Shown piece after piece: positions 33,716 through 59,584 of a stretch of 64,000 nt of DNA. Every line of letters starts with the position of its first letter. Within the stretch, counting starts at the first letter, position 1. A model generated the notes under the pieces. It was given only the letters and a program-made list of their open reading frames with translations. It did no database searches and had not been told where the DNA came from. The stretch comes from Winogradskyella sp. J14-2. Its GTDB lineage: Bacteria; Bacteroidota; Bacteroidia; Flavobacteriales; Flavobacteriaceae. Both the position numbers and the translations under genes were made by a program. The stretch covers positions 1,302,001-1,366,000 of the forward strand of contig NZ_CP019388.1 in assembly GCF_001971725.1 (NCBI RefSeq), read 5' to 3'.

Positions 33716-36055
33716 CTACATATTGTCCGTCTTACCGTAACCATAACTATAACCATAATTATAGCCATAGCCTTGAGACTTACTTGCTCCAACACTATTA
33801 ATAACATAGGCCATATTCTTTAACTTACCGCTATCTGATAGATCTTTAGAGAATTTTAATAAGTTTTTCTCGGTGTAATTGGCCCTAGCAATATAGATCG
33901 TAGCATCTGCTAATTGCGAAATTAACATGGTATCAGTCACTAAAATCGTTGGTGCTGTATCTACAACAACATAGTCGTATACTTCTCGCGCTTCTTCGAT
34001 TAGTTTTTTAAAGCGTCCGTTGGTTAGTAAGTGTGCAGGATTAGGAGGAATGCTTCCTGAAAGTATAATATTATGGTTTGGATGCTTTTCAAAACCTTTA
34101 ATTAAAGCATTTTTCCAATCGTAATTAACATCATGAAGATAATTTGATAAGCCTGGTTTTTGTTTATCCTCGCTAATATGTGTGTGTATCTGAGGGTTTC
34201 TTAAGTCGGCACCTATAAGCAATACTCTTTTATTGATGCTAGAAAGTGCTAAAGATAAATTTAGGCTTACATATGTTTTTCCCTCTCCTTTAATTGTACT
34301 TGTACAATAGATAACTTTACCTTTTTCACCGTCTTTAACAGGTAAAATATAATCTACATTAGAACTTAGAATTCTAAAGGATTCTGCAAGCGGAGAGCGA
34401 TCATTAGGATCGTTAAAAATAAGATCTTTTTTCTTCTTTAAATCGGGTATTTCACCAATAACCGGAATTTTAGAAGTAACCTCGACGATATCTTCTTTGC
34501 TGTGTAATTTAGTATCTAGCATAAAAATGAGATATAACACTCCAAAAGGTATCAAAACGCCGGCTAGTAGAGCACCTGCATAGACTATGGTTGGTTTTGG
34601 TGATATTGGTTTTATGCTAGAAAGTGCTCTTTCAACTTCTTTTATAGATGGTTCTGTAATGGCTAAATTTATGGCAGCCTCCTCACGTTTTTGAAGTAAT
34701 AGAAGGTAAAGACTCTCCTTTATTTTCTGCTGTCGATCAATAGCCTTAAATAATCGTTCTTGTTCAGGTATTTGAGATACTCTTCCTGCTAATTGTCTAT
34801 TTTTTCTTTTTAATTGGTTTAAAGACGCCTTAACTTGGGCTGAGTATGTTCTTAGAGATTTATCTATACTAGATTTTAAATTTTGTACCTCACTAATAGC
34901 AAGTTGCACCATTGGGTTATTATCGCCACCACTGCTTATTAACTTATCTCGGTTTATAACCGCAGTGTTATATTCTGAAATGAGTTGGTTTATACTTACA
35001 TTCTCTATACCAATATTAGCTGGCAATAAGGCAGATTCAGAATCACTAATTAGAGAGTTAACTAATAAATTAGAAAGCTCGAGCTGGTTTTCTAAAGCAA
35101 ATACTTCTTCTTCTGATTTTGTTCGTTGTTGAAGCCCAAGCTCTGCATCTGTTTGGATATCTACGATGTTATTATCTTGTTTAAAACCTTGTCTATCGAT
35201 TTCTATAGAGTCTAACTCTTTGGCTAAAAATTCAAATCTAGCATCTATAAAGTCTAAGGTGCGTTCAGAAACTAACTGTCTGTCTTTTATTCCATCTTTA
35301 TCAAAAACCTCCATTAAGGTATTTAAAATGTTTTCTGACAGTACTTTACTTTCTCCTTTAATAGAGAGTTTTAATAAATCGCTTTGTTCACCAATGGCCT
35401 CAACGACTATTTTACTTTTTAAAGCTAAGGTCGCATCCTTTACAGTTTTAAAGATAATATTGTATGACGTATCTATAATATCAGCCAAAGGAATCTGATT
35501 ATTTAACTTTAGATTAAAAGGTAATCTATGGTTTTGAGCAAAGGTGGAATGCTCATTAAAGTTAAAGACTTTATCTGTATCTAAATTAGTAATTTGAAAT
35601 CCCTTATCGGTTATTACCAGTTTATAAGACATGGTATTTGCCACACTATCGGCTTGTATTATCTGACTATAATCTAGCGGTAAAGATTCTATTTGTTTTG
35701 TTTGAATTGTACCTTCCTCGTAAAAGACCGTATTTAAGTTTAGCGCTCTAACCACTTTCTCCATGATAAGGAAAGAACTTATTATTTCAATTTCGTTTTC
35801 GAGATTAATATTAGTGCGCTTAAATACAAAGGCAGATGTTGGCAACTCTAGGCCTTCGGATTCATCTAAAATTTTCACCTTAGAATAGGTCTCAAAAATA
35901 CGTGGCGCATATCGTAAATATATGTAGGCACTTAATAATGAAACCACCACAGCAATAACAAACCATGGCCAATAGGTTAAGTATTGTCTCACTAATTGCT
36001 TTACATCAATTTTATCCTCTTCACCAAAAAAACTACTATTCAACTGATTATCCAT
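33716..36055 (-). CDS. Wzc-type polysaccharide co-polymerase and tyrosine autokinase
   Basis: A 779-residue inner-membrane protein that controls chain length and export of surface polysaccharide. A Wzz domain with an early transmembrane helix (YWPWFVIAVVVSLLSAYIYL) is followed by a long coiled-coil periplasmic region, a second helix (YAGALLAGVLIPFGVLYLIFM) and a cytoplasmic BY-kinase. The kinase has Walker A TIKGEGKTYVSLN, Walker A' VLLIGADLRNPQ and Walker B VVVDTAPTIL. It ends in a tyrosine cluster (GYGYNYGYSYGYG), the usual autophosphorylation site. It follows the Wza-like gene by 3 bp. Together they form the export end of the polysaccharide locus. Confidence 0.94.
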   Translation of the reverse strand: MDNQLNSSFFGEEDKIDVKQLVRQYLTYWPWFVIAVVVSLLSAYIYLRYAPRIFETYSKVKILDESEGLELPTSAFVFKRTNINLENEIEIISSFLIMEKVVRALNLNTVFYEEGTIQTKQIESLPLDYSQIIQADSVANTMSYKLVITDKGFQITNLDTDKVFNFNEHSTFAQNHRLPFNLKLNNQIPLADIIDTSYNIIFKTVKDATLALKSKIVVEAIGEQSDLLKLSIKGESKVLSENILNTLMEVFDKDGIKDRQLVSERTLDFIDARFEFLAKELDSIEIDRQGFKQDNNIVDIQTDAELGLQQRTKSEEEVFALENQLELSNLLVNSLISDSESALLPANIGIENVSINQLISEYNTAVINRDKLISSGGDNNPMVQLAISEVQNLKSSIDKSLRTYSAQVKASLNQLKRKNRQLAGRVSQIPEQERLFKAIDRQQKIKESLYLLLLQKREEAAINLAITEPSIKEVERALSSIKPISPKPTIVYAGALLAGVLIPFGVLYLIFMLDTKLHSKEDIVEVTSKIPVIGEIPDLKKKKDLIFNDPNDRSPLAESFRILSSNVDYILPVKDGEKGKVIYCTSTIKGEGKTYVSLNLSLALSSINKRVLLIGADLRNPQIHTHISEDKQKPGLSNYLHDVNYDWKNALIKGFEKHPNHNIILSGSIPPNPAHLLTNGRFKKLIEEAREVYDYVVVDTAPTILVTDTMLISQLADATIYIARANYTEKNLLKFSKDLSDSGKLKNMAYVINSVGASKSQGYGYNYGYSYGYGKTDNM

Positions 36056-36058
36056 ACC

Positions 36059-36820
36059 TTATCTTGTTAGTAAAATTGTAACACTAAGGGCTAATGACGC
36101 AATTGTTAAGATAGTACCTACATTACCTACAAAACCTGCACTTTTCACCTTTGGATTATTAGGACTTACTATTATATTGTCATTGGGTTTTATAAAATAA
36201 AATTCACTGTTCATAAATGAAGCCGAAGTTAAGTCTATGTGAGATATTTTACGCACACCATCTACTTCCCTTGTGATTAAAATATCATCTCGTTTACCAT
36301 TAATGGTTAGATCTCCTGCATAACCTAAAGCTTGTAATATAGTAATGTTTTGTTCGGTAAAGCTGTAGGTGCCAGGCTTATTAACCTCACCTAAAATAGT
36401 AACCTTAGCGTTTATAAGTCTTACGTTTACAGTTGGATCTAAAAGATGACCTCCAGAGATTAGGCGATCTTTTATTTCTGCTTCTAACGCCTTAGTGGTT
36501 TTGTTTGCTGTTGAAATTTCGCCTAAAACCGGAAACTTTATGGTATTATCTACCGAAACTAAGTAACCATCTAATTGAAGTACTTGAAGATTTTGAGGTT
36601 GTGCACCTATAGCTCTAGATTTATTGTAAGGTATTGCTGCTTCTGGTATAGTACTTTCAACAGTTATTTTTAATATGTCATTAGGTTGAATGTTTGCAGA
36701 TTCATAGTTTACTTCGCTATTGTTTTGCTCTATTGCATCTTGCATGTAGAGTATTTCTTTTTTTGAAGCACAAGAGCTTAAAACAATTAATACGAATAGA
36801 CTTAAAATTCTTTTTTTCAT
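36059..36820 (-). CDS. Wza-like polysaccharide export lipoprotein
   Basis: A 253-residue outer-membrane export lipoprotein. The lipobox LIVLSSC gives a lipidated Cys near residue 17; the Poly_export domain (IQPNDILKITVES) and SLBB-type domain (AKVTILGEVNKPGTYSF) follow. A C-terminal hydrophobic helix (GNVGTILTIASLALSVTILL) is present, where E. coli Wza has its outer-membrane helix. It partners with the tyrosine kinase gene immediately downstream. An exact -7 element lies about 28 bp before the ATG, making this the first gene of a two-gene transcript. Confidence 0.92.
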   Translation of the reverse strand: MKKRILSLFVLIVLSSCASKKEILYMQDAIEQNNSEVNYESANIQPNDILKITVESTIPEAAIPYNKSRAIGAQPQNLQVLQLDGYLVSVDNTIKFPVLGEISTANKTTKALEAEIKDRLISGGHLLDPTVNVRLINAKVTILGEVNKPGTYSFTEQNITILQALGYAGDLTINGKRDDILITREVDGVRKISHIDLTSASFMNSEFYFIKPNDNIIVSPNNPKVKSAGFVGNVGTILTIASLALSVTILLTR

Positions 36821-36847
36821 TAAAAACTTATATAATTACAAGTGTAG

Positions 36848-36855
36848 CAAATATA
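36848..36855 (-). promoter_or_regulatory. -7 promoter element for the wza-wzc-like pair
   Basis: TATATTTG on the minus strand, exact match, about 28 bp before the export-lipoprotein ATG. Confidence 0.55.
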
Positions 36856-36916
36856 ACCGCATTTAGAGGACTAACAAAAGCTAATGTAATATAAAAAAAT
36901 AAGCTTCATACTGCGC

Positions 36917-38008
36917 TCAATTATTAGCTGACTTCTTAATGAGAAATGGCAACGTATAAAGCGTAGAACCATACAGTAGTAAAAAAATAATTTGTGTATT
37001 AAGATTAAGGTGTAGTAAATTAAAGGCAATACCTATTATAATTACATTGATGGTACAAATTAAAATGGTTGTCATTAAATGGCTATAGCCCCTTTTTATA
37101 AATCTATGGTGAATATGATTTTTATCTGCTTTAAAGGGACTCGTTTTATGAATTACTATCCTTATAAAAAATATTCTTAGGGTATCTATTAGAGGGTAGA
37201 ATAATAAGGCAAATGCTAGAGCTGGCGACGCTTTAAAATATGCAGAATCTTTATCTAATTGCGCTATATTTATAAAACTAATGGTGAAAAAAGCTAATAA
37301 AAATCCTACTATCATTGAGCCCGTATCACCCATAAAAATTTTATTTTTCTGAGAGAAATTAAGCCGTAAAAAGGCTAAAAGGCATCCACAAAGCGCAATA
37401 GCTATCGTTGCCAAACTCAATTCATTAGAATTTACAAAGAGATGCACAAAAATACCACTAATGCTTAATGCTATAGTTCCTGCAAGTCCATCTACGCCAT
37501 CAATTAAGTTGTATGCGTTAATAATAAGAATATAAACAAAAAGGGTAAAGCCTACCGATATCCAATATGGCAACACATCGATATCTAAAATTTTTGAAAA
37601 TCCAATTATCCTAGTATCTGTAAACACAATAAGCAGACCAGCCGCAAGTAATTGCCCCATAAACTTCTTCCTTGCAGAGAGTACAGTTAAATCATCTTTA
37701 AGTCCTAAAAAGAAGAGCATCGTGAGACCTCCCATTACCAAAAGTAAAACCTTGGTATTTAAAAAGGCCCCTACAATAGTCATTACAACAATGAGTCCTA
37801 CAAAAATACCAATGCCACCAAGGGTTGGTGTTTTATCAGAATGCACACTTCTACTATCTGGTTCATCCATTAAATGCTTTTCTTTTGCTACATATAATAT
37901 GGTTGGAAATGTTTGATAAGCAATAAAGAATGCTAACAAAAATGCTGCTGTTAGCCAGATGGCTATATTATTTTCGGGAGTAAAGTTCTCCAACAATGTT
38001 TCAATCAT
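36917..38008 (-). CDS. MraY/WecA-family undecaprenyl-phosphate sugar-1-phosphate transferase
   Basis: A 363-residue polytopic membrane enzyme that loads the first sugar-phosphate, probably GlcNAc-1-P, on undecaprenyl phosphate. About ten hydrophobic helices are apparent. Catalytic loops include LKDDLTVLSARKKFMGQ, NAYNLIDGVDGLAGT and MGDTGSMIVGF, with a His-rich cytosolic loop KADKNHIHHRFIKRG diagnostic for the WecA branch. The frame is open to 38050, but the ATG at 38008 (MIETLLENF) is preferred because the extra residues look unrelated. It probably starts synthesis of the polysaccharide exported by the Wza/Wzc pair. The WecB and WecG-like genes beside it suggest a GlcNAc-ManNAc start. Confidence 0.92.
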   Translation of the reverse strand: MIETLLENFTPENNIAIWLTAAFLLAFFIAYQTFPTILYVAKEKHLMDEPDSRSVHSDKTPTLGGIGIFVGLIVVMTIVGAFLNTKVLLLVMGGLTMLFFLGLKDDLTVLSARKKFMGQLLAAGLLIVFTDTRIIGFSKILDIDVLPYWISVGFTLFVYILIINAYNLIDGVDGLAGTIALSISGIFVHLFVNSNELSLATIAIALCGCLLAFLRLNFSQKNKIFMGDTGSMIVGFLLAFFTISFINIAQLDKDSAYFKASPALAFALLFYPLIDTLRIFFIRIVIHKTSPFKADKNHIHHRFIKRGYSHLMTTILICTINVIIIGIAFNLLHLNLNTQIIFLLLYGSTLYTLPFLIKKSANN

Positions 38009-38039
38009 ATGGTTGATTTTAAAACATCTTAGGGGATCA

Positions 38040-38047
38040 GAAATATA
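38040..38047 (-). promoter_or_regulatory. Near-consensus -7 element for the WecA-like gene
   Basis: TATATTTC on the minus strand, one base from TANNTTTG, about 32 bp before the chosen ATG at 38008. It falls inside the longer frame, which supports the internal start. Confidence 0.35.
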
Positions 38048-38063
38048 CAACTTTCTAAACGAA

Positions 38064-38093: not shown

Positions 38094-39191
38094 TTATTTC
38101 TTAGCAAAATTTAGGATATGTGCTACTATTCTTTCAGCGGTTTTACCATCCCATAGCGGAATTGTTTTGTAATCTTTCCATTCTCCATTAAAAAGTTTTT
38201 CTAAGTAAGGTTTAATAGCCTGCGGATTAGTTCCTACCAACTCATTAGTCCCTAAGGTTATCGTTTCTGGTCGCTCAGTATTATCACGAAGCGTCATACA
38301 AGGTACGTTCATAACTGATGTTTCTTCTGTAATACCACCTGAATCTGTAATGACTGCTTTAGCGTTTTCTACTAAGTAATTAAATTCTAAATAGCTTAAA
38401 GGTGCCACCATATGCAATCTAGGATGTGACACTTTTAAATGCTCTAGGATCTTAGCTGTTCTTGGATGCACAGGAAAAATTAATGGTAAGTCTTTAGTAT
38501 TCCCAACAATCTCTTCTATCATAGCCTTTAACTGACCCTCTTCATCGACGTTTGCTGGTCTGTGAAGCGTCATTACGATATACGATTTTGGCTTGAGACC
38601 TAATTTACCATAGACCTCTGGTGCTTTAAAGTTTGGTCTATGTTTTAAAAGGGTATCTATCATTGTATTTCCTACGTAAAATATTTGGTTAGCTTTAACA
38701 CCACTCTTTAAGAGGTTTTGATTTGCTAATTCTGAAGTCGTAAAAAAATAGTTGGTAATACTATCAGTAACTAATCTGTTAATCTCTTCTGGCATTGTCC
38801 AGTCATAAGAGCGAATACCTGCCTCTACATGGGCCACCTTAGTATGCAGTTTTTGCGCTACTAAAGCACAAGCCATTGTTGATGTTACATCACCAACCAC
38901 CAAAACCAAATCTGCAGGATTTGTCATTAATTCCTTTTCAAAACTTACTAAAATTGCTGCTGTTTGCTCAGCTTGTGTGCCGCCACTGCACTCTAAGTTA
39001 ATATGTGGTTCTGGGATGCTAAGCTGTTCAAAAAAGCTGCCAGACATATTTTTATCGTAGTGCTGACCAGTGTGTACTAATCTATAGTCTATTGCTTTGC
39101 CATTCTGTTTAGCATTTTTTATAGCATGAATTATGGGTGCAATTTTCATAAAGTTTGGCCTTGCACCTGCTATTATTGTAATATGATACAT
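38094..39191 (-). CDS. wecB: Non-hydrolysing UDP-GlcNAc 2-epimerase
   Basis: A 365-residue cytosolic enzyme that converts UDP-GlcNAc to UDP-ManNAc. Family motifs are visible: GARPNFMKIAPI, LVHTGQHYDKNMSG, VVGDVTSTMACAL, HVEAGIRSYDWTMPEEINR, and ITDSGGITEE near the C-terminus. It differs from the hydrolysing LegG/NeuC type encoded at 54.2-55.3 kb, so the locus contains two 2-epimerases for two different sugar pathways. UDP-ManNAc would be the donor for the adjacent WecG/TagA-type transferase. An exact -7 box lies about 48 bp upstream. Confidence 0.95.
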   Translation of the reverse strand: MYHITIIAGARPNFMKIAPIIHAIKNAKQNGKAIDYRLVHTGQHYDKNMSGSFFEQLSIPEPHINLECSGGTQAEQTAAILVSFEKELMTNPADLVLVVGDVTSTMACALVAQKLHTKVAHVEAGIRSYDWTMPEEINRLVTDSITNYFFTTSELANQNLLKSGVKANQIFYVGNTMIDTLLKHRPNFKAPEVYGKLGLKPKSYIVMTLHRPANVDEEGQLKAMIEEIVGNTKDLPLIFPVHPRTAKILEHLKVSHPRLHMVAPLSYLEFNYLVENAKAVITDSGGITEETSVMNVPCMTLRDNTERPETITLGTNELVGTNPQAIKPYLEKLFNGEWKDYKTIPLWDGKTAERIVAHILNFAKK

Positions 39192-39239
39192 GATAGTTTT
39201 GGGTTGATTGGTTTTATTACAGCTATACTACTGATGCTA

Positions 39240-39451: not shown

Positions 39452-40150
39452 CTAATATTTCCCTAACATTAAATTTGCTAAAAAACGCACCAGATGTATT
39501 TGACGCTTTATTCTTGATGGCTGGTTAATGAGCCTGTATGCCCATTCTAGATTGTTTTTTACCCACCATTTTGGGGCACGTTTTACATGACCTGTATAGA
39601 CATCAAAACTTCCTCCTAAGCCTTGATATACGGCTTGATGTTTTTGCTGTATGCGTTCCATGAGTAGTTCTTGCTTTGGTGAGCCCATAGCTACAAAGAC
39701 AACATCTGGCTGGTGTTTAACGATATCTTGAATAAGCGCTTTTTCTTGAACTTCATTCTTTATGTAGCCATTTCTGTAGTTACATATGTTAATGCCCTTA
39801 AAGTTTTCTTTTAGCTTTGCAACGGTTTGATCTATAACTTCTTGTTTCCCACCTACCAAATAAAACGTCTTTGTTTTATGGTGTTTTGCTACAATATCTA
39901 GCCAAAGTTCGCATCCTGGGATTTTAACGACCTCTTTATGTCCTTTTTTATGTAATGCCCAAACAGCACCTATACCATCTGGATAGCCTAAGTTTCGGTT
40001 AATAATAGCGCGACTTTGATCTGTAGCATGTAGAATCTTTTCTGCATTTACTGCCACCAATATTTTATGATGCTCAAAAGCGTAGTCTATAAGTTGATCT
40101 CTAGATTTTGGCGCGTAAGTAATGACGTTATTTAGGGCTTGAAACTGCAT
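39452..40150 (-). CDS. WecG/TagA/CpsF family glycosyltransferase
   Basis: A 232-residue GT26-family enzyme, typically transferring ManNAc or ManNAcA to the GlcNAc-PP-lipid starter on the cytoplasmic face. Motifs include the family start VNAEKILHA, GYPDGIGAVWALHKKG, FYLVGGKQEV and VFVAMGSPKQELLM. Its neighbours provide both partners: WecB makes UDP-ManNAc and the WecA-like enzyme makes the lipid-linked first sugar. I saw no WecC dehydrogenase in this window, so ManNAc itself is the likelier donor. It lies 2 bp downstream of the toroid-like gene on the same strand, so the two are co-transcribed. Confidence 0.92.
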   Translation of the reverse strand: MQFQALNNVITYAPKSRDQLIDYAFEHHKILVAVNAEKILHATDQSRAIINRNLGYPDGIGAVWALHKKGHKEVVKIPGCELWLDIVAKHHKTKTFYLVGGKQEVIDQTVAKLKENFKGINICNYRNGYIKNEVQEKALIQDIVKHQPDVVFVAMGSPKQELLMERIQQKHQAVYQGLGGSFDVYTGHVKRAPKWWVKNNLEWAYRLINQPSRIKRQIHLVRFLANLMLGKY

Positions 40151-40152: not shown

Positions 40153-41346
40153 TTATTTGTTTATTTCTAAATAATAATGTGCCATAGCATTGAACATAAA
40201 GGCATTACTCCATCGCATATATGAAATTTTTGAACTCAATCCTTGCCTGTATTGGTAATAAAAGAAGCCTTTTTTAGACTGCATATTTTCTATCGTCCAG
40301 TTTAGTGTACGCTCTAATAATTCTAAATGTTTTGTAAAGGTGTTCAATTTTGAGGCTGTTACTATAACTTGTGCTGGGCAATGGATATCTATAGGATAGG
40401 TTTTATCGTGATAATATTTTGGTTTGCCGTCTGCTTCAAAAAAGTGTTCTGTGTAATAGTCCCAACCTTTATCTATGTATTTTTGAAATGCGGTATCGTC
40501 TGTATTTTGCTGATAGGTTTCTAAGGCATCTAAATTAAAACCCGTATGAAAACTGTCTTTCCAAGATTGTACTGGTAATAATCCATAAATCCAAGAGCCA
40601 TCGTCTTCTTGTAAATCGCAGGCCGCTACCACTGCTTTTTTTGCCATGTCTAAATACGTTTGCTTTTTTTTGTATTTGTAGGCATAGCTTAAAATTTTTG
40701 CTCCTAATAACGAGGCATTGATTACCGTATTGTTACCGTCTTTGATACTGTAAGAAAAGATGTGTCCAGTACCGTGTTCGGTTCTGGATAAATCTTGCAA
40801 TACAAATTCTGCTGATGACAGGGCTGTATTTAGCACGTTTTCGTCTTGTGTTATTTTATAGCTTTCTATTAGTGCCTCTACGCAAAAGGCAGTGGCCACT
40901 ACTGTTGGTGTATTTTTTTTGAATAGAAATAGTCGTCTTGCCTGCCAATCGAAGTTATAGCCCCAACATGCGCCTGCATAGCCTTCTACTTTCATGTCTA
41001 AAAGTAGTTGGGTTAGATACTTAATTTTCTCTACAAGTGTTTCTGAGGTTCCGAATTCGATTTTGCCTTGACTTGCTGCTTCGTAAAGCCTACAGTAGCC
41101 CAGAAGAAATAATGCTATCCCTTTTGAGTTGTGCTGCTTAGGCACCAGCAATAGTTTCCTAAGATTAATAGGACTACGCTTAAAGCCCTGTATCCAAGCC
41201 AATCTTGCTATGTCCCAATGTTTTAAAGGCAATGCTTGAAACACTTTAGAATTTAAACCATCATAAGGGTCCCAGCCTGCGAAGTTTTGGTCTTCGCAGT
41301 AGGATTTGAGGTTTTGGAAGCTATCATTAAATTTTATGGTTCTCAA
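40153..41346 (-). CDS. Alpha/alpha-toroid (six-hairpin glycosidase-like) protein of the polysaccharide locus
   Basis: A 397-residue soluble protein without signal peptide. It is made of repeated helical hairpins with recurrent aromatic/Gly pairs (NFAGWDPYDGLNS, GYAGACWGYNFDWQARRL, EDDGSWIYGL, SFHTGFNLDALE), the pattern of alpha/alpha-toroid folds used by glycoside hydrolases, lyases and epimerases. Homologues are, from memory, sometimes mislabelled delta-aminolevulinic acid dehydratase, which nothing here supports. Conserved Trp, Asp and His suggest carbohydrate binding. It starts a short transcript with the WecG/TagA gene. A role in trimming or epimerising a cytosolic or lipid-linked glycan is inference only. 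Confidence 0.7.
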   Translation of the reverse strand: MRTIKFNDSFQNLKSYCEDQNFAGWDPYDGLNSKVFQALPLKHWDIARLAWIQGFKRSPINLRKLLLVPKQHNSKGIALFLLGYCRLYEAASQGKIEFGTSETLVEKIKYLTQLLLDMKVEGYAGACWGYNFDWQARRLFLFKKNTPTVVATAFCVEALIESYKITQDENVLNTALSSAEFVLQDLSRTEHGTGHIFSYSIKDGNNTVINASLLGAKILSYAYKYKKKQTYLDMAKKAVVAACDLQEDDGSWIYGLLPVQSWKDSFHTGFNLDALETYQQNTDDTAFQKYIDKGWDYYTEHFFEADGKPKYYHDKTYPIDIHCPAQVIVTASKLNTFTKHLELLERTLNWTIENMQSKKGFFYYQYRQGLSSKISYMRWSNAFMFNAMAHYYLEINK

Positions 41347-41815: not shown

Positions 41816-41819
41816 TTAA

Positions 41820-51693: not shown

Positions 51694-52521
51694 TTATGTA
51701 TTCTTATTAGCTTGTATAGATTTTTTAGTCAACACATAATTCCAATCTTGGTCAAATTTTTCATTTATTTCTAACACAGTATTAGGGTTGAGCATAAATT
51801 TTTTACCAAAATCAGGTAAATATTTCTGACAAATTTTACGAGGAGTAATATTTAAAAACTTGAAAAGTTTACTATACAGCAACTTAAATCTAAACATCTT
51901 ATGAAACTTAATATCTATATAATTTAAGCGGTATAATAATTTTGTTTGAAAATTAGTACGAATACCTGAATTCACCTTTTTTGATTCAAAATTTATAGAT
52001 GCGTCTTCTAACCCTAAAAATTCTGAAAACGACTTATGAAATGATTCCATTGCTCTTAAATCGTCTAACGTGTAGATAAAAACATCTTCAAAATTATGTT
52101 GTATTACTTCAATAAAACTTCTAAAAACTACATCTTCTTGTTTTAAAACACCTGTATTCTCAAAATTGAAAAAATCTTTAAACTTTAAAGCATTCCCTTC
52201 ATGCAGGAATTGCTTGTAAGATGACAATATATAATCTGAATGCTTCCTAAAACCAACAACAATTTTAGCCTCTGGATACATTTCTTTTATGCTATTGATT
52301 GTACTAATACACTCTTCTAATTTATTTCCACCAAATAATCTTCCACTTAAGTTTTCTTCGGATATTAAGACAGGTTGTTTAGCTATATTCATACCCATTA
52401 ATACCTTGTAATACGGCTCACTGGCTTTAATGTATTTTAGTGCTAATTGTGGAAAATACTCCCTTTGCAGATATGTTGTGCCTGTTTTATGTAAACCTAT
52501 ATGAAATATAATGTTACTCAT
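51694..52521 (-). CDS. Sulfotransferase-like protein
   Basis: This 275-residue protein has the PAPS-binding loop IIFHIGLHKTGTTYLQ at the very N-terminus and IVVGFRKHSDYILSSYKQF near residue 95 as the 3'-phosphate region. It shares little with the three sulfotransferases at 45.6-48.2 kb. It overlaps neuA/legF by 8 bp, tying it to the nonulosonate genes. A role in sulfating the nonulosonic acid or its neighbour sugar is a guess from position. Confidence 0.82.
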   Translation of the reverse strand: MSNIIFHIGLHKTGTTYLQREYFPQLALKYIKASEPYYKVLMGMNIAKQPVLISEENLSGRLFGGNKLEECISTINSIKEMYPEAKIVVGFRKHSDYILSSYKQFLHEGNALKFKDFFNFENTGVLKQEDVVFRSFIEVIQHNFEDVFIYTLDDLRAMESFHKSFSEFLGLEDASINFESKKVNSGIRTNFQTKLLYRLNYIDIKFHKMFRFKLLYSKLFKFLNITPRKICQKYLPDFGKKFMLNPNTVLEINEKFDQDWNYVLTKKSIQANKNT

Positions 52522-53197
52522 CCATTTTAAAAATTTCTTCGGCTACTTTCCAATCCATTACTGTATCTATATCATGGGAGCTTAATTCATCCATTTCAAA
52601 CTTTTTCACTTTAACCAGTTGTGCTAAAGAATTAGCTTCAATTGATCTTGTATTTATGATATAAATAGCACCATTAAGTTCCCAAACTTTTGGCACATCT
52701 TGCCTTCTGGTGGCATTAGATACTTTAGACTTTACCAAATACCCTTGCTCGTTTTCTTCTCTAAGTACGTAATAAGGATTAGATTTTGTTTCTTTTACCG
52801 AAACCAGCATATCTAAGTTGTCATTATAGTGAGTTAAAGCATCCTTAATATGTTGGGCTGTTCTAAAAGGTGATGTAGGTTGAAGCAATATTAATGTATC
52901 TGCATGGTATCCTCTTTCTGCATAGAATGTTAAGGCATGTTTTATAACACTTTCTGAGGTTGCAGTATCCGTTGCTAATACCTTTGGACGTAGAAAAGGG
53001 ACTTCTAAACCAAAGGATTCGACTGTGCTTTTTATTTTTTGGTCATCAGTGGAGACACATATTACATGATCATTAAATATCGCTCTAGCAGCATCAATAG
53101 TGTATTGTATTAAAGGTTTACCGTTTAGCAACTTAATGTTTTTTCCCGGCACACCTTTAGACCCTCCTCTGGCTGGTATTAGAACTAATGGTCTCAA
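52514..53197 (-). CDS. CMP-nonulosonate (acylneuraminate) cytidylyltransferase
   Basis: A 227-residue enzyme that activates sialic, legionaminic or related acids with CTP. The N-terminal nucleotide motif LIPARGGSKGVPGKNIKLL and the later LLQPTSPFRTAQHI are diagnostic. The metal and substrate region WELNGAIYIINT is present. It follows the PtmE-like gene by 1 bp. The neighbouring LegB/LegC-type enzymes favour a legionaminic-type substrate (LegF) over N-acetylneuraminate (NeuA). Confidence 0.92.
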   Translation of the reverse strand: MRPLVLIPARGGSKGVPGKNIKLLNGKPLIQYTIDAARAIFNDHVICVSTDDQKIKSTVESFGLEVPFLRPKVLATDTATSESVIKHALTFYAERGYHADTLILLQPTSPFRTAQHIKDALTHYNDNLDMLVSVKETKSNPYYVLREENEQGYLVKSKVSNATRRQDVPKVWELNGAIYIINTRSIEANSLAQLVKVKKFEMDELSSHDIDTVMDWKVAEEIFKMDE

Positions 53198-53198: not shown

Positions 53199-54245
53199 TT
53201 AGAATTTTATGGTGTTAATATCTATTTGTGCTTTTTCAAAATCTTCGTGCTTACCCACGTCTAGCCAATACCCAATTAATGGAAAAGAAATTACTTTTTT
53301 GTTCATTTCTATAAGTTTTTCCATTAAATCCGTGGCGTTAAAAAATACATTTTTAGGAATGACGTCTAGTACTTCTTTTTTCATTAAATAAATACCACCA
53401 TTAGAATAATAGGTATAGGTTGGTTTTTCTTTAAAATCTATAATATGATTATTAGATGTCTCTAATACAGCATAAGGTATACTTACATTGTAAGGTATTG
53501 TAACTACAGCCAAATCCGCATCTTGCTTTATAAAATCTAAGTAAAATGCTTCGTAATCTAAATTGGTTAACACATCTGAATTGGATATTAAAACATGATT
53601 ATGCTTAAAATCTTTGATTTTAGAAACGGAACCAATGGTACCTAGAGGCTCATCTTCCCAAACGTAACTAATAGCACAGTTCTTTTCACTACCATCACTA
53701 AAGTAATCTTCTATCTGCTCACCTAAATATCTTACAGAAAACCAAAAATCGTCTATACCGTAAAGTGCTAAACGGTCTACATTGTGCTCCATAATGGGTT
53801 TACCTCCTACATTAAGAAGCGGTTTTGGGGTTGTATCTGTGAGTGGTCTTAATCGTTGCCCTCTGCCTCCTGCCATAATAACGGCATCTACAGGCAAGTA
53901 TGAACGCATAAATCTAAAATTAACGATATTAATAACTCTATCGTCTTTATCTAAAACTGGTATAATTTTAAAGTTTCGTTCTCTAAACTCTATAATTTGA
54001 AGTATATCTCTTTCGTCTTTTCTTATAAATTTAGGATTATCTTGTATTATAGCTTCTACAGACTCATCTATGTTAACTCCTTTAAGCAAACCTCTACGCA
54101 CATCACCATCTGTTAATGAGCCTATAAGTTTATCTGAATCATCTACAACAAAAACAACAGCATTAGCTGCCAAAACGTCTAATTTTGCCAAAGCTTCGCG
54201 TATGGTTGTTTTATTAAGAACTAAATGCTCTCTATAGTTTATCAT
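53199..54245 (-). CDS. Sugar-1-phosphate nucleotidyltransferase with CBS pair (PtmE-like)
   Basis: A 348-residue protein. Two CBS motifs occupy about residues 1-115 (VFVVDDSDKLIGSLTDGDVRRGLL, then FKIIPVLDKDDRVINIV). The rest is a nucleotidyltransferase with VIMAGGRGQRLRPLTDTTPKPLL and LLVNSDVL-like ILISNSDVLTN. This architecture matches PtmE of Campylobacter, which makes GDP-glucosamine for legionaminic acid synthesis. The GDP rather than UDP preference is taken from that family. It overlaps the LegG-type gene by 14 bp. Confidence 0.88.
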   Translation of the reverse strand: MINYREHLVLNKTTIREALAKLDVLAANAVVFVVDDSDKLIGSLTDGDVRRGLLKGVNIDESVEAIIQDNPKFIRKDERDILQIIEFRERNFKIIPVLDKDDRVINIVNFRFMRSYLPVDAVIMAGGRGQRLRPLTDTTPKPLLNVGGKPIMEHNVDRLALYGIDDFWFSVRYLGEQIEDYFSDGSEKNCAISYVWEDEPLGTIGSVSKIKDFKHNHVLISNSDVLTNLDYEAFYLDFIKQDADLAVVTIPYNVSIPYAVLETSNNHIIDFKEKPTYTYYSNGGIYLMKKEVLDVIPKNVFFNATDLMEKLIEMNKKVISFPLIGYWLDVGKHEDFEKAQIDINTIKF

Positions 54246-55338
54246 GCTCTTTAATTATTTTTATAATCGTATTAGCTGTGTTTTCGTTATAATACGTGTT
54301 TTCACCTGAATAAGCAGGTAAGCTTAAAACTTCCTTTACTTTATTTACAATATTTACCGCATTAAAATCTACATCAAAGGTATTTTTACTCTGTGCCCTT
54401 CCTTTTTGCCTATCCCCAACATTGACCACATATTTTTTGAAAGATGCAGCTTCAATAATTCCGCTAGACGTATTTCCTATTAATAGGGTTGAATAATGCA
54501 TTGCTGAAAAATAATTTGCCTTTCCAAAATTTTCAACCAAGACCACCTTATCAGGAACATTTTCTTTGAGTTTGTTAATCTCATTTCTATACACACCACC
54601 TAAGGTGTCTGCATTTGGCATTGTAACCACAATCTGTAATTCGCTTGTTAAAGCTTCCAAAGCGATTCGCATTTGCGAAGCATACTCATTATTACGCTCT
54701 ACAGCAACAGTCTCTGGATGAAATGTAACCAACGCAAAGGGTGCGTCCTTAATATTAAATTCGCCGAATATCTTTTGTCTTTCAACAGGTATAAAGTCCT
54801 TAATACCATCTAAGCTTAATGCTCCTACGTTAAAACTATCTGCACTCTCAATAAGCTGTTGTACTTTTTTCTTATAATCTAATGTAGCAACAAAGTGTAA
54901 CTTTGAAGCTAGTGTTAATTGATGCCTATATATATTATCTATAGCACCTAAAGTAGTTTCCCCTCCATGTATATGAGCCATGGGCACTCCGTAAGGAATA
55001 CTTGCTTGAACTGCGGCACTCATCTCAAATCTATCGCCCAAACAGAAGACCAAATCGAACGTATGTGTTTTCCAAAAATCAGCAAACTTTAAAACTGTAT
55101 TTCCATAAGATTTGGTAATGCCATATTGGCTATCGTCAGCCTCTAAGGAAGAAATTGTATGAATCGTTTTAAAACCATCTTTCTTAATATCGCTTAACGT
55201 GTATCCATGTAATTTTGACAAATGTGTACCAAAGGCAATAATCTCCATTTGGAAAAAAGGATCTATCTCTAATTGTTTTAATAATGGTAGATAAATTCCG
55301 TAATCTGCTCTAGAGCTTGTTAGGACACCTATTTTCAT
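54232..55338 (-). CDS. Hydrolysing sugar-nucleotide 2-epimerase (LegG/NeuC type)
   Basis: A 368-residue enzyme that removes the nucleotide and inverts C2 of a 2-acetamido sugar, giving the free ManNAc-like precursor. It has GVLTSSRADYGIYLPLL at the start, LGDRFEMSAAVQASIPYG, AHIHGGETTLGAID and GNTSSGIIEAASF. The GGETT motif and H-I-H-G context separate it from the non-hydrolysing WecB. It is joined to the LegI/NeuB gene by a 4-bp overlap. The substrate is expected to be the 4-amido-6-deoxy sugar from the LegB/LegC steps. Confidence 0.92.
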   Translation of the reverse strand: MKIGVLTSSRADYGIYLPLLKQLEIDPFFQMEIIAFGTHLSKLHGYTLSDIKKDGFKTIHTISSLEADDSQYGITKSYGNTVLKFADFWKTHTFDLVFCLGDRFEMSAAVQASIPYGVPMAHIHGGETTLGAIDNIYRHQLTLASKLHFVATLDYKKKVQQLIESADSFNVGALSLDGIKDFIPVERQKIFGEFNIKDAPFALVTFHPETVAVERNNEYASQMRIALEALTSELQIVVTMPNADTLGGVYRNEINKLKENVPDKVVLVENFGKANYFSAMHYSTLLIGNTSSGIIEAASFKKYVVNVGDRQKGRAQSKNTFDVDFNAVNIVNKVKEVLSLPAYSGENTYYNENTANTIIKIIKEHDKL

Positions 55339-56357
55339 ACAATATCGGACCAGGTTAATTTGTCAAACTTTTTAACATCTTTTGCGAGTGTTTTACCCAC
55401 AATGTCATTCCATCGCATTGGCGAAATACCGTCTCCAGGACGTAAAGGCAATAGGTCTGATTCTGAAATAACATCACCAGCAACCATATCTTTTGCCATA
55501 TGTAGGCTCTTTCTAGCTATACTAATATTTTTTTGCTCACTTTTTGATGGCTCTTTTTTGCCATTACCTGACATTGCCTTCTCTATATTTCTTATGGCTT
55601 TGACCATTTCTTTTAATTCATTAGGCTCTAACGATGCTTTATGGTCTGGCCCAGACATGGTCTTATCTAACGTAAAGTGTTTTTCTATAACTTTTGCCCC
55701 TAGAGCAACTGCTGCTACAGGCACCTCAATACCCAATGTATGGTCTGAATAACCTACAGTAACACCTAGTTCCTTTTCGATAGTAAGCATTGCTTTAAGA
55801 TTTACATCTTCCATAGGAGTTGGGTACTCCGTGTTACAGTGTAAAATTATGACATTCTCTTTTTTTACACCATTATTTTGAAGCACTTCTAGCGCTACCT
55901 TTATTTCTTCTATATCAGCCATTCCGGTTGACAAAATCGCTAACTTGTTTGTTTTTGCAATAGCTTTTAAATAAGGATAGTTTGTAATTTCTCCGCTTGG
56001 TACTTTAAATATATCTAAGCCTAGATCATCTAAATATTTAACACCCTCAGCATCAAAAGCACTTGACAAGAATTTAATATTCTTTCCTTTACAATAAGCA
56101 ATTAAATCTAAGTGATCTTGATGATTAATTTCAAGACTCTTAAGCATATTGTATTGTGAGTTATCACTATCCTGCATATTTTTTGCTTGATAAACGGCTT
56201 TACTAGCATCAGGGCTTGCTAACTTATCTGCTTTGAAACTTTGAAACTTTACATAGTCTACCTTGGCATCAACAGCTGCATCAATTAGCTTTTTCGCTAA
56301 ACTTATATCTCCATTATGATTTACTCCTGCCTCAGCAATTATAATTACTTTACTCAT
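55335..56357 (-). CDS. Nonulosonate synthase (LegI/NeuB family)
   Basis: A 340-residue enzyme that condenses phosphoenolpyruvate with a six-carbon amino sugar to form a nine-carbon acid. The TIM barrel shows EAGVNHNGDISLAKKLIDAA, KFQSFKADKL, FKVPSGEITNYPYLKAI and GYSDHTLGIEVPVAA; a C-terminal antifreeze-like SAF domain (MVAGDVISESDLLPLRPGDGISP) is present. NeuB, LegI and PseI share this layout. The neighbouring LegB/C genes point to LegI. It overlaps the formyltransferase gene by 4 bp. Confidence 0.94.
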   Translation of the reverse strand: MSKVIIIAEAGVNHNGDISLAKKLIDAAVDAKVDYVKFQSFKADKLASPDASKAVYQAKNMQDSDNSQYNMLKSLEINHQDHLDLIAYCKGKNIKFLSSAFDAEGVKYLDDLGLDIFKVPSGEITNYPYLKAIAKTNKLAILSTGMADIEEIKVALEVLQNNGVKKENVIILHCNTEYPTPMEDVNLKAMLTIEKELGVTVGYSDHTLGIEVPVAAVALGAKVIEKHFTLDKTMSGPDHKASLEPNELKEMVKAIRNIEKAMSGNGKKEPSKSEQKNISIARKSLHMAKDMVAGDVISESDLLPLRPGDGISPMRWNDIVGKTLAKDVKKFDKLTWSDIV

Positions 56358-57250
56358 TTTCCTAATTTATCACCTACTCTTATTTTTCCATCTACATCTA
56401 ATATTTCAATAAAAGAGTCTTTAGTTTTTACCAAAAATCCTGATTCTGTTTTACTAAGCACTTGGCCAACGGTACCAATATAATTTGGGACATCAGGAAT
56501 TAACCTTGACTTATTGATTTTTATTTCTTGCGAGTTATTGACAGTTCTTGCTATTGGACCTGGTGTAGATATTGAACGTATGAAGTTAAATAAGTTTCTT
56601 GAAGTGTCATTCCAATTAATAATTTCGTCACCAACACCTCTTCTTCCGCAATAAAAACCAACAGGATGAATGGTCTTTTGATCTATGCGTTCATAATCAT
56701 TTTCTGCTATTTTCACTAAAGCATCGTATAACAAACGAGAACATTCTACAAATGCTACTTCTAAAAGAGAAGCGTAATCATCTTCATCCGTTATAGGGAA
56801 AGTATCTTGCAGAATAATATCTCCTGTATCTATACCTTCATCAACAAAATGTACTGTGATACCAAATTCTTTTTCATCATTAATAAGCGCCCAATTCAAG
56901 ATATTTCTCCCTCTATAAAAAGGTAATTTACCTGCATGACAATTAATAATACCTTTTGGTGTTAGATTAATTATGCCTTTTCTGAAAATCTGATTAAAAC
57001 TCATTGACACTAAAACATCGCAATCGTATGTTTTAATCTTTTCTAAACTAGAAGGTGAATTAACATTATCTAATTTAAAATAATCTATATTATATTTCTT
57101 AGAAAAATCAGACAACACCATGTCTGTTGTATCTGTTCTAGGTACAATAAACTGAATATCGAATCTATCATCATTATTGATTATTTCAAAAGCTCTATGT
57201 GACCATGGTCCATCAGCAAAATAACCAATTCTTAACTTCTTTTGACTCAT
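56354..57250 (-). CDS. Sugar N-formyltransferase (formyl-THF dependent)
   Basis: A 298-residue protein with a formyl_trans_N domain: catalytic Asn and His in INCHAGKLPFYRGRN and Asp in FVDEGIDTGDIIL. A C-terminal FMT_C-like domain follows (IINWNDTSRNLFNFIRSISTPG, then EILDVDGKIRVGDKL). It is not Met-tRNA formyltransferase, since it lacks that family's start and sits overlapping LegI and LegC genes by 4 bp each. It probably formylates the 4-amino group made by the LegC-type aminotransferase, in the place where LegH normally acetylates. No LegH-like acetyltransferase is seen among these genes. Confidence 0.85.
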   Translation of the reverse strand: MSQKKLRIGYFADGPWSHRAFEIINNDDRFDIQFIVPRTDTTDMVLSDFSKKYNIDYFKLDNVNSPSSLEKIKTYDCDVLVSMSFNQIFRKGIINLTPKGIINCHAGKLPFYRGRNILNWALINDEKEFGITVHFVDEGIDTGDIILQDTFPITDEDDYASLLEVAFVECSRLLYDALVKIAENDYERIDQKTIHPVGFYCGRRGVGDEIINWNDTSRNLFNFIRSISTPGPIARTVNNSQEIKINKSRLIPDVPNYIGTVGQVLSKTESGFLVKTKDSFIEILDVDGKIRVGDKLGK

Positions 57251-58395
57251 ATAACACTACTTGGTATATTAACAATTCGTTCTTCCAAAAATATAGCATT
57301 TTTTTGACTGTCTCTTGTACAATCCTTATACATTGGCAATCTAAACATTAGTTGCCATATAGGTCTGGTCATAACACCTTGAGCATTTGTAGTCTCTAAA
57401 AACAGATTACGTTCTTCTTTGTTTGCTAACTCAACACACATTAACCAGTAATTGGCTTTTGTATCTTGTGTTTCTGTTCTAAAAACAATGCCTTTTGTAC
57501 TAAAATATGCTTTATAACTTGATGCTAATTTTCTTTTTTTCTTTAAAAAACCTTGCAATTGCTCCAATTGCGCACATGCCAAAGCTGCATTGACATTAGG
57601 CATTCTGTAATTATACCCTAAAGTGTCATGATAATACTCATAAGCATGCGGTTGCTTTGCAGTGGTAGTGAGATACTTTCCTTGGTCTGCAAGTGCTTTA
57701 TTGTTGGTAACAATGGCACCACCACCACCAGAAGTGGCTATTTTGTTTCCATTAAAAGAAAACACACCCAATTCACCAAAACTTCCGGTAGGTTTACCCT
57801 TATAAAGGCTACCTAAAGATTCTGCAGCATCTTCTACAATAGGGATATTCCATTTATTGCAAACCACTATAAGCTCATCTAAATGTACCGGAAAACCAAA
57901 GGTATGCATAGGTAAACAAGCACTTATTTTACGTCCTGTTGATTTATTATAGCAACCATCTTCACGCAGGTCTCCATGTTCTTCTAAAAAGTCTGAAACC
58001 GCATTTGGAGATAAACCCATAGTATCTAAATCAACATCTAAAAAGACAGGATGCGCATTATTGTATAGTATAGCATTTGCTGTAGCCACAAAAGTTAATG
58101 CTTGAGTGAGCACCTCATCACCTGCACGCACACCTACTAAGTGCAGCGCCACTTGTATGCCTGCAGTACCGTTAACCACAGCAACGGCACGATTAGTTTG
58201 CGCTGTAGTTGCTATTTGTTCTTCAAACTGATCTACAAATTTACCCACAGAAGACACAAAGGTAGTGTCTATACATTCGTTAAGATACCGTTTTTCATTA
58301 CCTGAAAAATGCGGCACATGTAAAGGGATAAAATCTGTTGTTTGAAACGTTTCTTGAATAAAACAAATGGTTTGGTTTAAATAAAGGTCTCTCAT
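57247..58395 (-). CDS. LegC-family PLP-dependent sugar aminotransferase
   Basis: A 382-residue DegT/DnrJ/EryC1-type aminotransferase. Family markers are FIPLHVPHFSGNEKRYLNECI near the N-terminus, VNGTAGIQVALHLVGV, EDAAESLGSLYKGKPTGSFG, and the PLP lysine in SFNGNKIATSGGGGAIV. It adds an amino group at C4 of a 4-keto-6-deoxy nucleotide sugar made by the dehydratase encoded 1 bp upstream. The FIPLHVP-GNE start is characteristic of LegC as opposed to PseC. Confidence 0.92.
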   Translation of the reverse strand: MRDLYLNQTICFIQETFQTTDFIPLHVPHFSGNEKRYLNECIDTTFVSSVGKFVDQFEEQIATTAQTNRAVAVVNGTAGIQVALHLVGVRAGDEVLTQALTFVATANAILYNNAHPVFLDVDLDTMGLSPNAVSDFLEEHGDLREDGCYNKSTGRKISACLPMHTFGFPVHLDELIVVCNKWNIPIVEDAAESLGSLYKGKPTGSFGELGVFSFNGNKIATSGGGGAIVTNNKALADQGKYLTTTAKQPHAYEYYHDTLGYNYRMPNVNAALACAQLEQLQGFLKKKRKLASSYKAYFSTKGIVFRTETQDTKANYWLMCVELANKEERNLFLETTNAQGVMTRPIWQLMFRLPMYKDCTRDSQKNAIFLEERIVNIPSSVI

Positions 58396-58396
58396 A

Positions 58397-59584
58397 TTAC
58401 ATTTTGGCCTCTAAATACTTTCCGGTTTCTTTATGATTGAAGTTTGGAATCATTTTATTGAATACATCCACTAGTTGCTGTTTCTCCCAACTGCCATGCT
58501 TTCGCAGGCTTAAAATAGTGTTTTCAAAAAATTCTAGTTTATCAGCTTCAATGTTTAGAGAATTTTTTATAATTCCTAAACTCTTAAAACGACTCATATC
58601 TAAGGTTTCTGATGCTGTAAAAAACTCTTCAAAGTCTTTTTCGCCTGTAGTATCACTTTTCACAAATAAGCATGGCCATTTTTTCTGACGAGAAAGCTCC
58701 TTCACTTTAGCTCTTGCCTCATCTTCCGAATATACAATTATAGGCTCATAACCTCGCTGCCTTAAATAACGCTCTGCTATGTCTGCAAATGTAATTAGAT
58801 GCAAACCTTCATTTAACTTTGGAAAAAATATATCTCTATTATCTCCAAAAATCGTTGACATTAAACATAATTCACCTGCTTCTTTAGGAATAACGAAATA
58901 ACGTCTAATATCACTTGGTGCTACTATAGGTTGCTGTTTTAACATACGCTGATTAAATCCATGAAGTAGAGAACCATCAGAAAACGCCACATTTGCAAAA
59001 CGTGCTGTAGATATACAAATATCCTGGCTTTTTTGCATTAAAAACATTTCCATAATCCTTTTAGACGCACCCATCATATTTACCGGGTTGGCTGCCTTAT
59101 CGGTAGAGACGCAGAAATATTTTTTTGCCTTACCTACAACAGCATGTTCTATGGTTTTAATGGTATTGAAAATGTTAACATCGACCATACGCATTAGAGT
59201 GAATGAATCTTTCTCGCTACGCACATGCTTTAATGCTGACAAATTTAGAACGTAATCGTATTTACCATCAGACTTTATAAAGGCATCATATATATCTGAC
59301 CCACAATCTAAAGCAAAGGTTTTAAATTCACCCGAAATATAACCTACAGAACTGCGCAGATCTCTAACCAATTCTACCAGATTGTTTTCGCTAATATCAA
59401 CAACATGAAGTTTTTTGGGGTTTCTTTTAAAAATCTCGGTCGTAACAGCCTGACCAATTGAACCAGCACCACCAATTACCAAAAATGTTGAAGAACTGAC
59501 AATTTTATTTAAATCATCACTATGCTTGGCAATATCTTCAACAAATAATTCTGCTTCTCTTCCTATTAGAGGTAGAATTTCCAT
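58397..59584 (-). CDS. CapD/FlaA1-type nucleotide-sugar 4,6-dehydratase (LegB role)
   Basis: A 395-residue short-chain dehydrogenase-like enzyme that makes the 4-keto-6-deoxy sugar starting the nonulosonate pathway. The NAD loop is FLVIGGAGSIGQAVTTEIF, VVDISENNLVELVRDL follows, and the active-site region reads VSTDKAANPVNMMGASKR, the Met-x-x-x-Lys variant used by CapD/FlaA1 proteins instead of Tyr-x-x-x-Lys. It has a longer C-terminus than typical LegB. The frame extends to a TTG at 59602; the ATG at 59584 (MEILPLIG) is preferred. It is the first gene of the 17.8-kb minus-strand run. Confidence 0.9.
   Translation of the reverse strand: MEILPLIGREAELFVEDIAKHSDDLNKIVSSSTFLVIGGAGSIGQAVTTEIFKRNPKKLHVVDISENNLVELVRDLRSSVGYISGEFKTFALDCGSDIYDAFIKSDGKYDYVLNLSALKHVRSEKDSFTLMRMVDVNIFNTIKTIEHAVVGKAKKYFCVSTDKAANPVNMMGASKRIMEMFLMQKSQDICISTARFANVAFSDGSLLHGFNQRMLKQQPIVAPSDIRRYFVIPKEAGELCLMSTIFGDNRDIFFPKLNEGLHLITFADIAERYLRQRGYEPIIVYSEDEARAKVKELSRQKKWPCLFVKSDTTGEKDFEEFFTASETLDMSRFKSLGIIKNSLNIEADKLEFFENTILSLRKHGSWEKQQLVDVFNKMIPNFNHKETGKYLEAKM

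Follow-up and report, generated by a model that had tools for sequence, protein, structure and literature searches.

The question raised by the DNA described here is what kind of surface glycan is made by a bacterial locus in which genes for a nonulosonic acid and genes for four sulfotransferases stand in one run. The DNA is a 64,000-nucleotide stretch from Winogradskyella sp. J14-2 (hereafter the window; bases 1302001-1366000 of a single-contig genome of 3.35 Mb), and the run consists of 23 genes, all on the minus strand, that extend from 59602 to 33716 (genome 1335716-1361602; Table 1). We consider it likely, with a probability of roughly 0.7, that the run is a Wzx/Wzy-dependent surface locus, for either a capsule or an exopolysaccharide, and that it directs a sulfated polymer bearing N-formyl legionaminic acid in the following way. 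WecA would start a lipid-linked repeat, WecB would supply UDP-ManNAc to WecG, and WecG together with the GT4 and GT52-like enzymes would extend the repeat. LegB, LegC, a formyltransferase, LegG, LegI and the PtmE-like and LegF-like enzymes, if active as predicted, would yield CMP-legionaminic acid formylated at the C7 nitrogen. While still in the cytoplasm, the sugars would be modified by as many as four sulfotransferases, supplied with 3'-phosphoadenosine 5'-phosphosulfate (PAPS) from a distant cysCDN set, and by one acetyltransferase; Wzx would then flip the repeat, Wzy would polymerise it, and Wzc and Wza would export the product.

Gene families were assigned by Pfam and NCBIfam profiles with their cut-offs, and proteins were compared with the PDB by sequence using phmmer. 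(Note that comparison genomes carry the prefix G and fetched loci or stretches the prefix L.) The genes named in a preliminary description of this DNA are all open reading frames on the minus strand with the same coordinates, and family matches bear out its account of a legionaminic-type pathway, a flippase, a polymerase and export proteins on one strand. For legB, the first ATG is at 59584, where that description ended the run, and a program-made list of open reading frames opens the frame at a TTG at 59602. From 59602 to 43959 neighbouring genes overlap or are separated by gaps of 50 nt or less; gaps of more than 50 nt within the run measure 473 nt (41347-41819), 260 nt (39192-39451) and 96 nt (36821-36916). 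WecA, Wza, the ATPase part of Wzc and Wzy exceed their cut-offs; Wzx and the Wzz part fall under theirs, yet are in place.

The gene for a protein sorted by the type IX secretion system (T9SS; Por_Secre_tail, 59883-63002) flanks the Leg end of the locus, and similar genes also flank the Leg loci of G344, G351, G349 and G045, which suggests that these loci may occupy a fixed chromosomal site. This shared flank would also suit a locus whose product is an O-antigen of lipopolysaccharide or a glycan bound to protein instead of a free capsule or exopolysaccharide, as would initiation by WecA, WecB and WecG, which also start O-antigens and enterobacterial common antigen. We regard such a product as unlikely: Wza and Wzc, which are typical of capsule and exopolysaccharide export, close the same run.

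The models for LegC, LegG/NeuC and LegI/NeuB were all matched above their NCBIfam cut-offs, and LegB matched PDB 3pvz over nearly its full length. Moreover, LegB is 67-75% identical to its counterparts in seven relatives of the genus and adjoins LegC in every one of them. Given that LegC exceeds its cut-off and that LegB is present, a 4-amino-6-deoxy intermediate is to be expected. The slot between LegC and LegI is occupied by a formyltransferase and not by the expected LegH N-acetyltransferase, and an alignment places its Asn-x-His and Asp residues in register with those of ArnA. The C4 amine made by LegC ends up as the C7 nitrogen of the nonulosonic acid. Because the formyltransferase stands in the LegH slot and the C4 amine becomes the C7 nitrogen, the product is predicted to be 7-N-formyl legionaminic acid, made by a variant (N-formyl) pathway, with the position of the formyl group inferred from the fate of that amine.

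The occupant of the LegH slot differs among relatives. In all five further Leg loci that were tested within the genus (G351, G353, G330, G349 and G340) the slot holds a hexapeptide-family protein, which in three cases carries a PglD-type N-domain; in other genera (for example G045, G104, G129 and G127) it holds a gene resembling the acetyltransferase gene of the window, and G126 has such a gene in the slot and a formyltransferase-like gene further on. The window's own hexapeptide protein (gene at 45040), encoded at a distance from the Leg genes, was not assigned to the LegH step. Among relatives of the formyltransferase, 63 of 80 named loci from several phyla have a LegC-like match in the fetched stretch. 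(A sulfotransferase is present in the stretch of 7 of these 80; one of them, L008, is G344 and another, L087, is hardly a relative.)

For activation of the sugar, the nearest NCBIfam model to the CBS-nucleotidyltransferase is mannose-1-phosphate guanylyltransferase, matched far under its cut-off, and its PDB matches are sugar-1-phosphate nucleotidyltransferases; we take this protein (53199..54245) to resemble PtmE of the GDP route. The LegF-like protein scored 150.9 bits against the PseF model, below the cut-off of 205.7, and matched no LegF model. The GT52 family, to which the gene after wzx appears to belong, includes sialyltransferases, and in G351 the gene at that position (L161:7053-7979, directly after the flippase gene) matches the alpha-2,8-polysialyltransferase family PF07388 with 28.8 bits (cut-off 23.3); the GT52-like gene is likely to encode the nonulosonyl transferase.

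Could the sugar be another 5,7-diamino acid or a neuraminic acid instead of a legionaminic one? The models matched by LegG and LegI (TIGR03568 and TIGR03569) do not tell Leg from Neu, and the best model for the LegF-like protein is the sub-cut-off PseF. We consider this very unlikely, however, in view of LegC exceeding its own cut-off and the presence of LegB, of the score of the synthase against the PseI model (289.4 bits, below the cut-off of 340.25), and of a separate pseudaminic gene set elsewhere in the genome.

The four sulfotransferases had been described as PAPS-type and unlike one another (genes at 45605, 46440, 47322 and 51694), and both statements hold. They fall into three Pfam families, and identity to ST_A is 24% for ST_B, 14% for ST_C and 17% for ST_D. 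ST_A, ST_B and ST_C exceed their Pfam cut-offs; ST_D is 0.2 bits short as a whole protein and reaches 29.2 bits in a genome scan in which same-frame pieces are summed. All four frames are intact, and by eye each protein has one PAPS-type loop (HIEKCAGTT, GAQKAGTTS, GLSRSGSK or GLHKTGTT) and an Arg...Ser segment resembling the 3'-phosphate motif, these being the segments that contact the 5' side and the 3'-phosphate of PAPS. In ST_D the loop residues, Arg92 and Ser100 are invariant across seven aligned proteins. The idea that the four are a chance reading was rejected, as both family assignments and motifs stand up; descent as copies of a single gene was rejected on the basis of their divergence from ST_A and their families.

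Comparisons with the PDB returned 3rnl (annotated "sulfotransferase") for ST_B with an E value of 3.5e-34, followed by heparan sulfate N- and 3-O-sulfotransferases (3e-11 to 1e-7), a short match to a heparan sulfate 6-O-sulfotransferase for ST_A (1.9e-4), and weak matches to tyrosine and other sulfotransferases for ST_C; for ST_D the sequence comparison gave no PDB match at E values up to 1. These matches say nothing certain about the acceptors. The ST_D gene shares 8 nt with the LegF-like gene, and the ST_C gene shares 4 nt with wzy and directly adjoins that for ST_B; because of this packing, ST_C and ST_D are probably produced together with the pathway.

Where the sulfate donor might come from is indicated by the only adenosine 5'-phosphosulfate (APS) kinase gene of the genome, which is at 2031573, about 670 kb from the locus. 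The genes there are, in order, a cysQ-like gene (inositol-phosphatase family), a small gene, cysC, cysD and cysN (the last three each over an NCBIfam cut-off), and cysN is followed directly by pseB, pseC, pseF, pseG, a formyltransferase gene in the place of the acetyltransferase gene, and pseI (L172:8323-18177, genome 2030323-2040177). The sulfate activation genes are thus joined to a second, pseudaminic, nonulosonic acid pathway and not to the sulfotransferase locus. Family models identify a NeuB-family match of 305 bits in this genome as a true PseI. G342 and G350 likewise have an APS kinase gene near a NeuB gene, at a distance of 9-11 kb. (Note that the location of the PAPS genes, like the formyltransferase in the LegH position, goes beyond the preliminary description.)

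Across a genus sample of 68 genomes, APS kinase and sulfotransferase genes occur together in 52, the kinase alone in 4, a sulfotransferase alone in 1 and neither in 11 (Fisher 1e-8, kinship ignored; a sulfotransferase was counted as any match with E 0.001 or better, some of them below the family cut-off). This co-occurrence suggests that PAPS serves sulfotransfer in the genus. At 28 of the 58 APS kinase places in the genus, a sulfotransferase gene is within 20 kb. The J14-2 genome has another nonulosonic locus (L174:12099 to L175:4373, genome 880099-892373), which is neuraminate-like, with a NeuB_NnaB score of 397, just below 399.65, and NeuC over its cut-off; it contains a Wzt gene of the ATP-binding cassette (ABC) type and two sulfotransferase genes.

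To what extent do the sulfotransferases belong with the rest of the locus? In G344, the closest relative, the locus is collinear at 52-87% identity (Wzc, cut by the end of the stretch, is 61% identical over the part present), with ST_B at 73% and ST_A, the most divergent gene, at 52%. G351 shares both the nonulosonic block and the block of bi-domain oxidoreductase (ADH-Gfo), GH88-like, WecG and WecB genes, at 65-89% identity, and its centre consists of five other genes: those for a flippase and a polysialyltransferase-family protein, two with GT1 domains and one that is Wzy-like and scores below the cut-off. Since the window, G344 and G351 have the same ends and different centres, the ends appear to be fixed and the centre, with its sulfotransferases, to be exchanged; this comparison indicates that the sulfotransferases belong to a swappable central cassette. 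The G+C content of the centre (44-52 kb) is 29-32%, as against 32-40% in the remainder of the locus. No sulfotransferase gene lies within 20 kb of the Leg locus in G353, G330, G336, G349 or G340, the remaining five of the genus, although the G336 contig stops soon after LegI.

An exchangeable centre also admits the view that polymer and nonulosonic acid are as proposed and that only ST_A and ST_B serve the polymer, ST_C and ST_D being recent passengers, either idle or directed at other glycans. It would accord with the occurrence of ST_A and ST_B alone in the collinear locus of G344, and with the presence in the J14-2 genome of another nonulosonic locus with two sulfotransferase genes plus one sulfotransferase gene elsewhere. 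We think this unlikely but plausible; four intact, motif-bearing frames and the tight packing of ST_C and ST_D within the run argue for the reading in which all four presumably act on this polymer. A single-sequence search with ST_D gave only weak matches, in 5 of 298 other genomes of the family. Its best match in the G344 genome, which has sulfotransferases elsewhere, has an E value of 2.1e-10, and ST_D is absent from the G344 locus.

We also counted sulfotransferase genes near nonulosonic genes. The genus sample contains 56 NeuB-family genes in 42 of 68 genomes, and 22 of these genes have a sulfotransferase gene within 20 kb, compared to 1.6 expected by random placement, which is a weak null as surface-glycan genes cluster anyway. 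The proportions are 2/8 for Leg loci (counted by LegC of at least 56% identity, in 8 of the 68 genomes), 0/9 for the other group above 300 bits and 20/39 for the group below 250 bits, the latter two being called PseI-like and neuraminate-like each from the family-model assignment of its J14-2 member only. Four sulfotransferase genes near one NeuB gene is the maximum in the genus and occurs only in the window. For this census, which includes matches below the family cut-offs, the second fragment of the G328 NeuB and second pieces of sulfotransferase frames were removed by hand, PF00685 rows that the other two families had already supplied were entered once, and the remaining matches were joined when they fell within 450 bp, leaving 192 sulfotransferase places in 53 genomes. 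In the family sample (199 genomes, two of the genus left out) a Sulfotransfer_3 gene lies no more than 20 kb from 15 of the 131 NeuB genes, with 1.07 expected; this is an undercount, as only Sulfotransfer_3 at E 1e-6 was used and second pieces of frames were dropped. Of the eight loci with the best NeuB scores in other genera, viewed with their flanks, one has sulfotransferases, namely the legionaminic locus of G045, with two. A sulfotransferase gene lies directly inside a NeuA/NeuB/NeuC-like set in G357 (L178:9306-10109), G341 (L187:9306-10109), G344 (L177:15340-16143) and G331 (L179:9191-9994).

ST_D invites a more specific proposal, that it sulfates the N-formyl legionaminic acid itself and that its line within the genus travels with nonulosonic genes for that purpose. 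If so, it would make a bacterial sulfated nonulosonic acid; we hold this to be quite doubtful. One lead is the overlap of ST_D with the LegF-like gene. In addition, G305 and G352, which were both search seeds, have a relative of ST_D adjoining a NeuB-type gene. Among strong non-seed relatives in the genus, 4/8 have a NeuB gene no more than 20 kb away, versus 34/187 of the other sulfotransferases (one-sided p 0.048), and in the family sample the figure is 3/6 for matches with E <1e-18 outside the seeds and the window (G039, where the frame contains a stop, G096 and G114). A 601-aa ST_D-like protein of G341 (L187:2078-3883) ends in a region with weak resemblance to MptE/DUF115 (E 5e-4, under the cut-off), and G357 encodes the two parts in adjacent genes; the MptE/DUF115 group includes flagellar nonulosonate transferases. 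We treat the proximity of ST_D relatives to NeuB genes as a lead only.

Several points weigh against a sulfated, N-formyl-legionaminic polymer as the product, which is predicted from the genes. Wzx is under its Pfam cut-off and ST_D marginally so; the LegF-like gene passes CTP_transf_3, but matches PseF below the cut-off and no LegF model; and structure models of ST_D (alone) and of the GT52-like protein (with one relative) had predicted local distance difference test (pLDDT) values of 39.1 and 40.0, respectively, and were unusable. The PAPS genes are outside the locus (1335716-1361602, compared to 2031573 for apsK). The G344 locus is without ST_C, ST_D and the O-acetyltransferase, and no sulfotransferase is found among the five central genes of G351, the whole genome of which gives a single sulfotransferase match, below the cut-off. 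Finally, at the genome level, NeuB and sulfotransferases are independent in the genus (present/absent 34/8 with NeuB against 19/7 without, p 0.55) and show no excess in the family sample (37/68/27/65, p 0.45). The preliminary description had proposed comparing related genomes for co-conservation and had held that sulfotransferase genes absent from otherwise identical loci would refute it. Such absences were found in part: G344 keeps the locus with ST_A and ST_B but lacks the other two, and the G351 centre has none. The highly anionic polysaccharide with carboxyl and sulfate groups that it predicted is still the best reading, given the capacity of the genome to make PAPS and the G344 locus with two sulfotransferases, but the set of four is not co-conserved.

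Table 1. Genes of the run in the window, with the matches on which the family names rest.
Feature	Position	Strand	Evidence
LegB-type NDP-GlcNAc 4,6-dehydratase	58397..59602	-	PF02719 137.2 bits; residues 8-401 match PDB 3pvz (phmmer E 7.5e-188)
LegC aminotransferase	57247..58395	-	TIGR04181 531.5 bits, cut-off 420
Sugar N-formyltransferase, LegH position	56354..57250	-	PF00551/PF02911; ArnA alignment
LegI/NeuB-type nonulosonic acid synthase	55335..56357	-	TIGR03569 469.9 bits, cut-off 399.65
LegG/NeuC-type hydrolysing 2-epimerase	54232..55338	-	TIGR03568 354.6 bits, cut-off 235.9
CBS + nucleotidyltransferase (PtmE-like)	53199..54245	-	PF00483 130.8 bits; CBS 28.8 bits
CMP-nonulosonate cytidylyltransferase (LegF-like)	52514..53197	-	PF02348 (CTP_transf_3) 87.5 bits
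Sulfotransferase ST_D	51694..52521	-	PF13469 (Sulfotransfer_3) 26.8 bits, cut-off 27
Wzx-type flippase	50384..51643	-	PF01943 25.6 bits, below 28.2 cut-off; 76% identical, same place in G344
GT52-like glycosyltransferase	49370..50380	-	PF07922 27.1 bits, cut-off 26.1
Wzy-type polymerase	48161..49357	-	PF04932 35.6 bits, cut-off 31.7
Sulfotransferase ST_C	47322..48164	-	PF13469 (Sulfotransfer_3) 82.5 bits, cut-off 27
Sulfotransferase ST_B	46440..47321	-	PF00685 (Sulfotransfer_1) 67.1 bits, cut-off 22
Sulfotransferase ST_A	45605..46429	-	PF03567 (Sulfotransfer_2) 35.8 bits, cut-off 22
Hexapeptide O-acetyltransferase	45040..45603	-	PF00132 43.9 bits; WbbJ/Maa/LacA-like, below those cut-offs
GT4 glycosyltransferase	43959..45047	-	PF00534 147.9 bits
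Bi-domain oxidoreductase (zinc alcohol dehydrogenase, ADH, + Gfo/Idh/MocA)	41820..43958	-	PF00107, PF01408
GH88-like protein	40153..41346	-	PF07470 35.2 bits, cut-off 26.6
WecG/TagA-type glycosyltransferase	39452..40150	-	PF03808 180.2 bits
WecB UDP-GlcNAc 2-epimerase	38094..39191	-	TIGR00236 327.7 bits, cut-off 210.15
WecA-type initiating sugar-phosphate transferase	36917..38050	-	PF00953 117.8 bits
Wza-type outer-membrane export protein	36059..36820	-	PF02563, PF10531 over cut-offs
Wzc-type co-polymerase/kinase	33716..36055	-	AAA_31 36.5 bits, cut-off 27; GNVR 27.3 and Wzz 21 bits, both under cut-offs

Some features of the window stand apart from these arguments. The pair of GH88-like and bi-domain ADH-Gfo genes (40153-43958) ranks with the most strongly conserved portions of the locus (79-89%), ADH-Gfo being 87-89% and the GH88-like protein 79-80% identical in G344 and G351; the sequence of the GH88-like protein matched no PDB entry at E values up to 1. 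Between the two genes lies the 473-nt non-coding stretch (41347-41819), which contains palindrome-like DNA by eye and of which a repeat search of 33000-60000 listed no copy; in G344 the two genes overlap, with no such spacer. An S15-Flavobacteria ribosomal leader RNA is found at 21120-21185 (69.7 bits).

Should this polymer exist, a carboxylate and perhaps several sulfates would be present in each of its repeats, so that sulfated sialoglycans and glycosaminoglycans would have a counterpart in bacteria, and marine Flavobacteriaceae would make such material besides degrading it. Moreover, relatives with four, two or no sulfotransferases between the same ends, and with a formyl- or a probable acetyltransferase in the LegH slot, make the contribution of each gene testable. 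The preliminary description knew of no such structure in Flavobacteriaceae. Among the matches listed from the open-licence literature, none described a structure with both nonulosonic acid and sulfate in this family, so that statement is not contradicted, but the combination is not isolated, as the genus counts near NeuB genes and the G045 locus illustrate.

The nearest described glycan, as far as the available portion of its description goes, is the S-layer N-glycan of Halorubrum sp. PV6, in which N-formyl legionaminic acid adjoins a sulfated or phosphorylated hexuronic acid and for which Leg genes with a possible formyltransferase gene are reported (PMC6137143); unlike the product proposed here, it is archaeal, short and protein-linked, its formyl group is reported on N5, and LegH is also assigned there. 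The cyanobacterial synechan xss system likewise combines Wzx/Wzy machinery with sulfotransferases (two genes, xssA and xssE), but has other glycosyltransferases and a dedicated regulator, and the accessible sections of its account do not mention nonulosonic acid (PMC13125312). The sulfated capsules of Vibrio sp. KMM 8419 (PMC11641403) and Cobetia marina KMM 1449 (PMC11766843) are from marine bacteria with sulfotransferase and PAPS genes, and their structures are solved; in the portions available these capsules are of the ABC-transporter type with PAPS genes inside the cluster, and the words legionaminic and pseudaminic are absent from the texts, whereas in J14-2 apsK does not share a cluster with the four sulfotransferase genes, being about 670 kb away (compare PMC11641403). 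The O-polysaccharide of Cellulophaga fucicola and a polysaccharide of Pseudoalteromonas distincta, both from marine bacteria and one of them from a member of the Flavobacteriaceae, contain nonulosonic acids, one with a 7-formamido group, but these are of the pseudaminic (L-glycero-L-manno) type, and sulfate is not mentioned for them in the part consulted (PMC3210612). In the extracellular polymeric substances of granular sludge, the available text reports nonulosonic acids and sulfated groups together in one matrix, the bulk material of a mixed community, in which one polymer or one locus is not established (PMC10483923). Set beside these systems, the locus of the window apparently assembles known parts in an exact combination that is undescribed, but modular and not unique.

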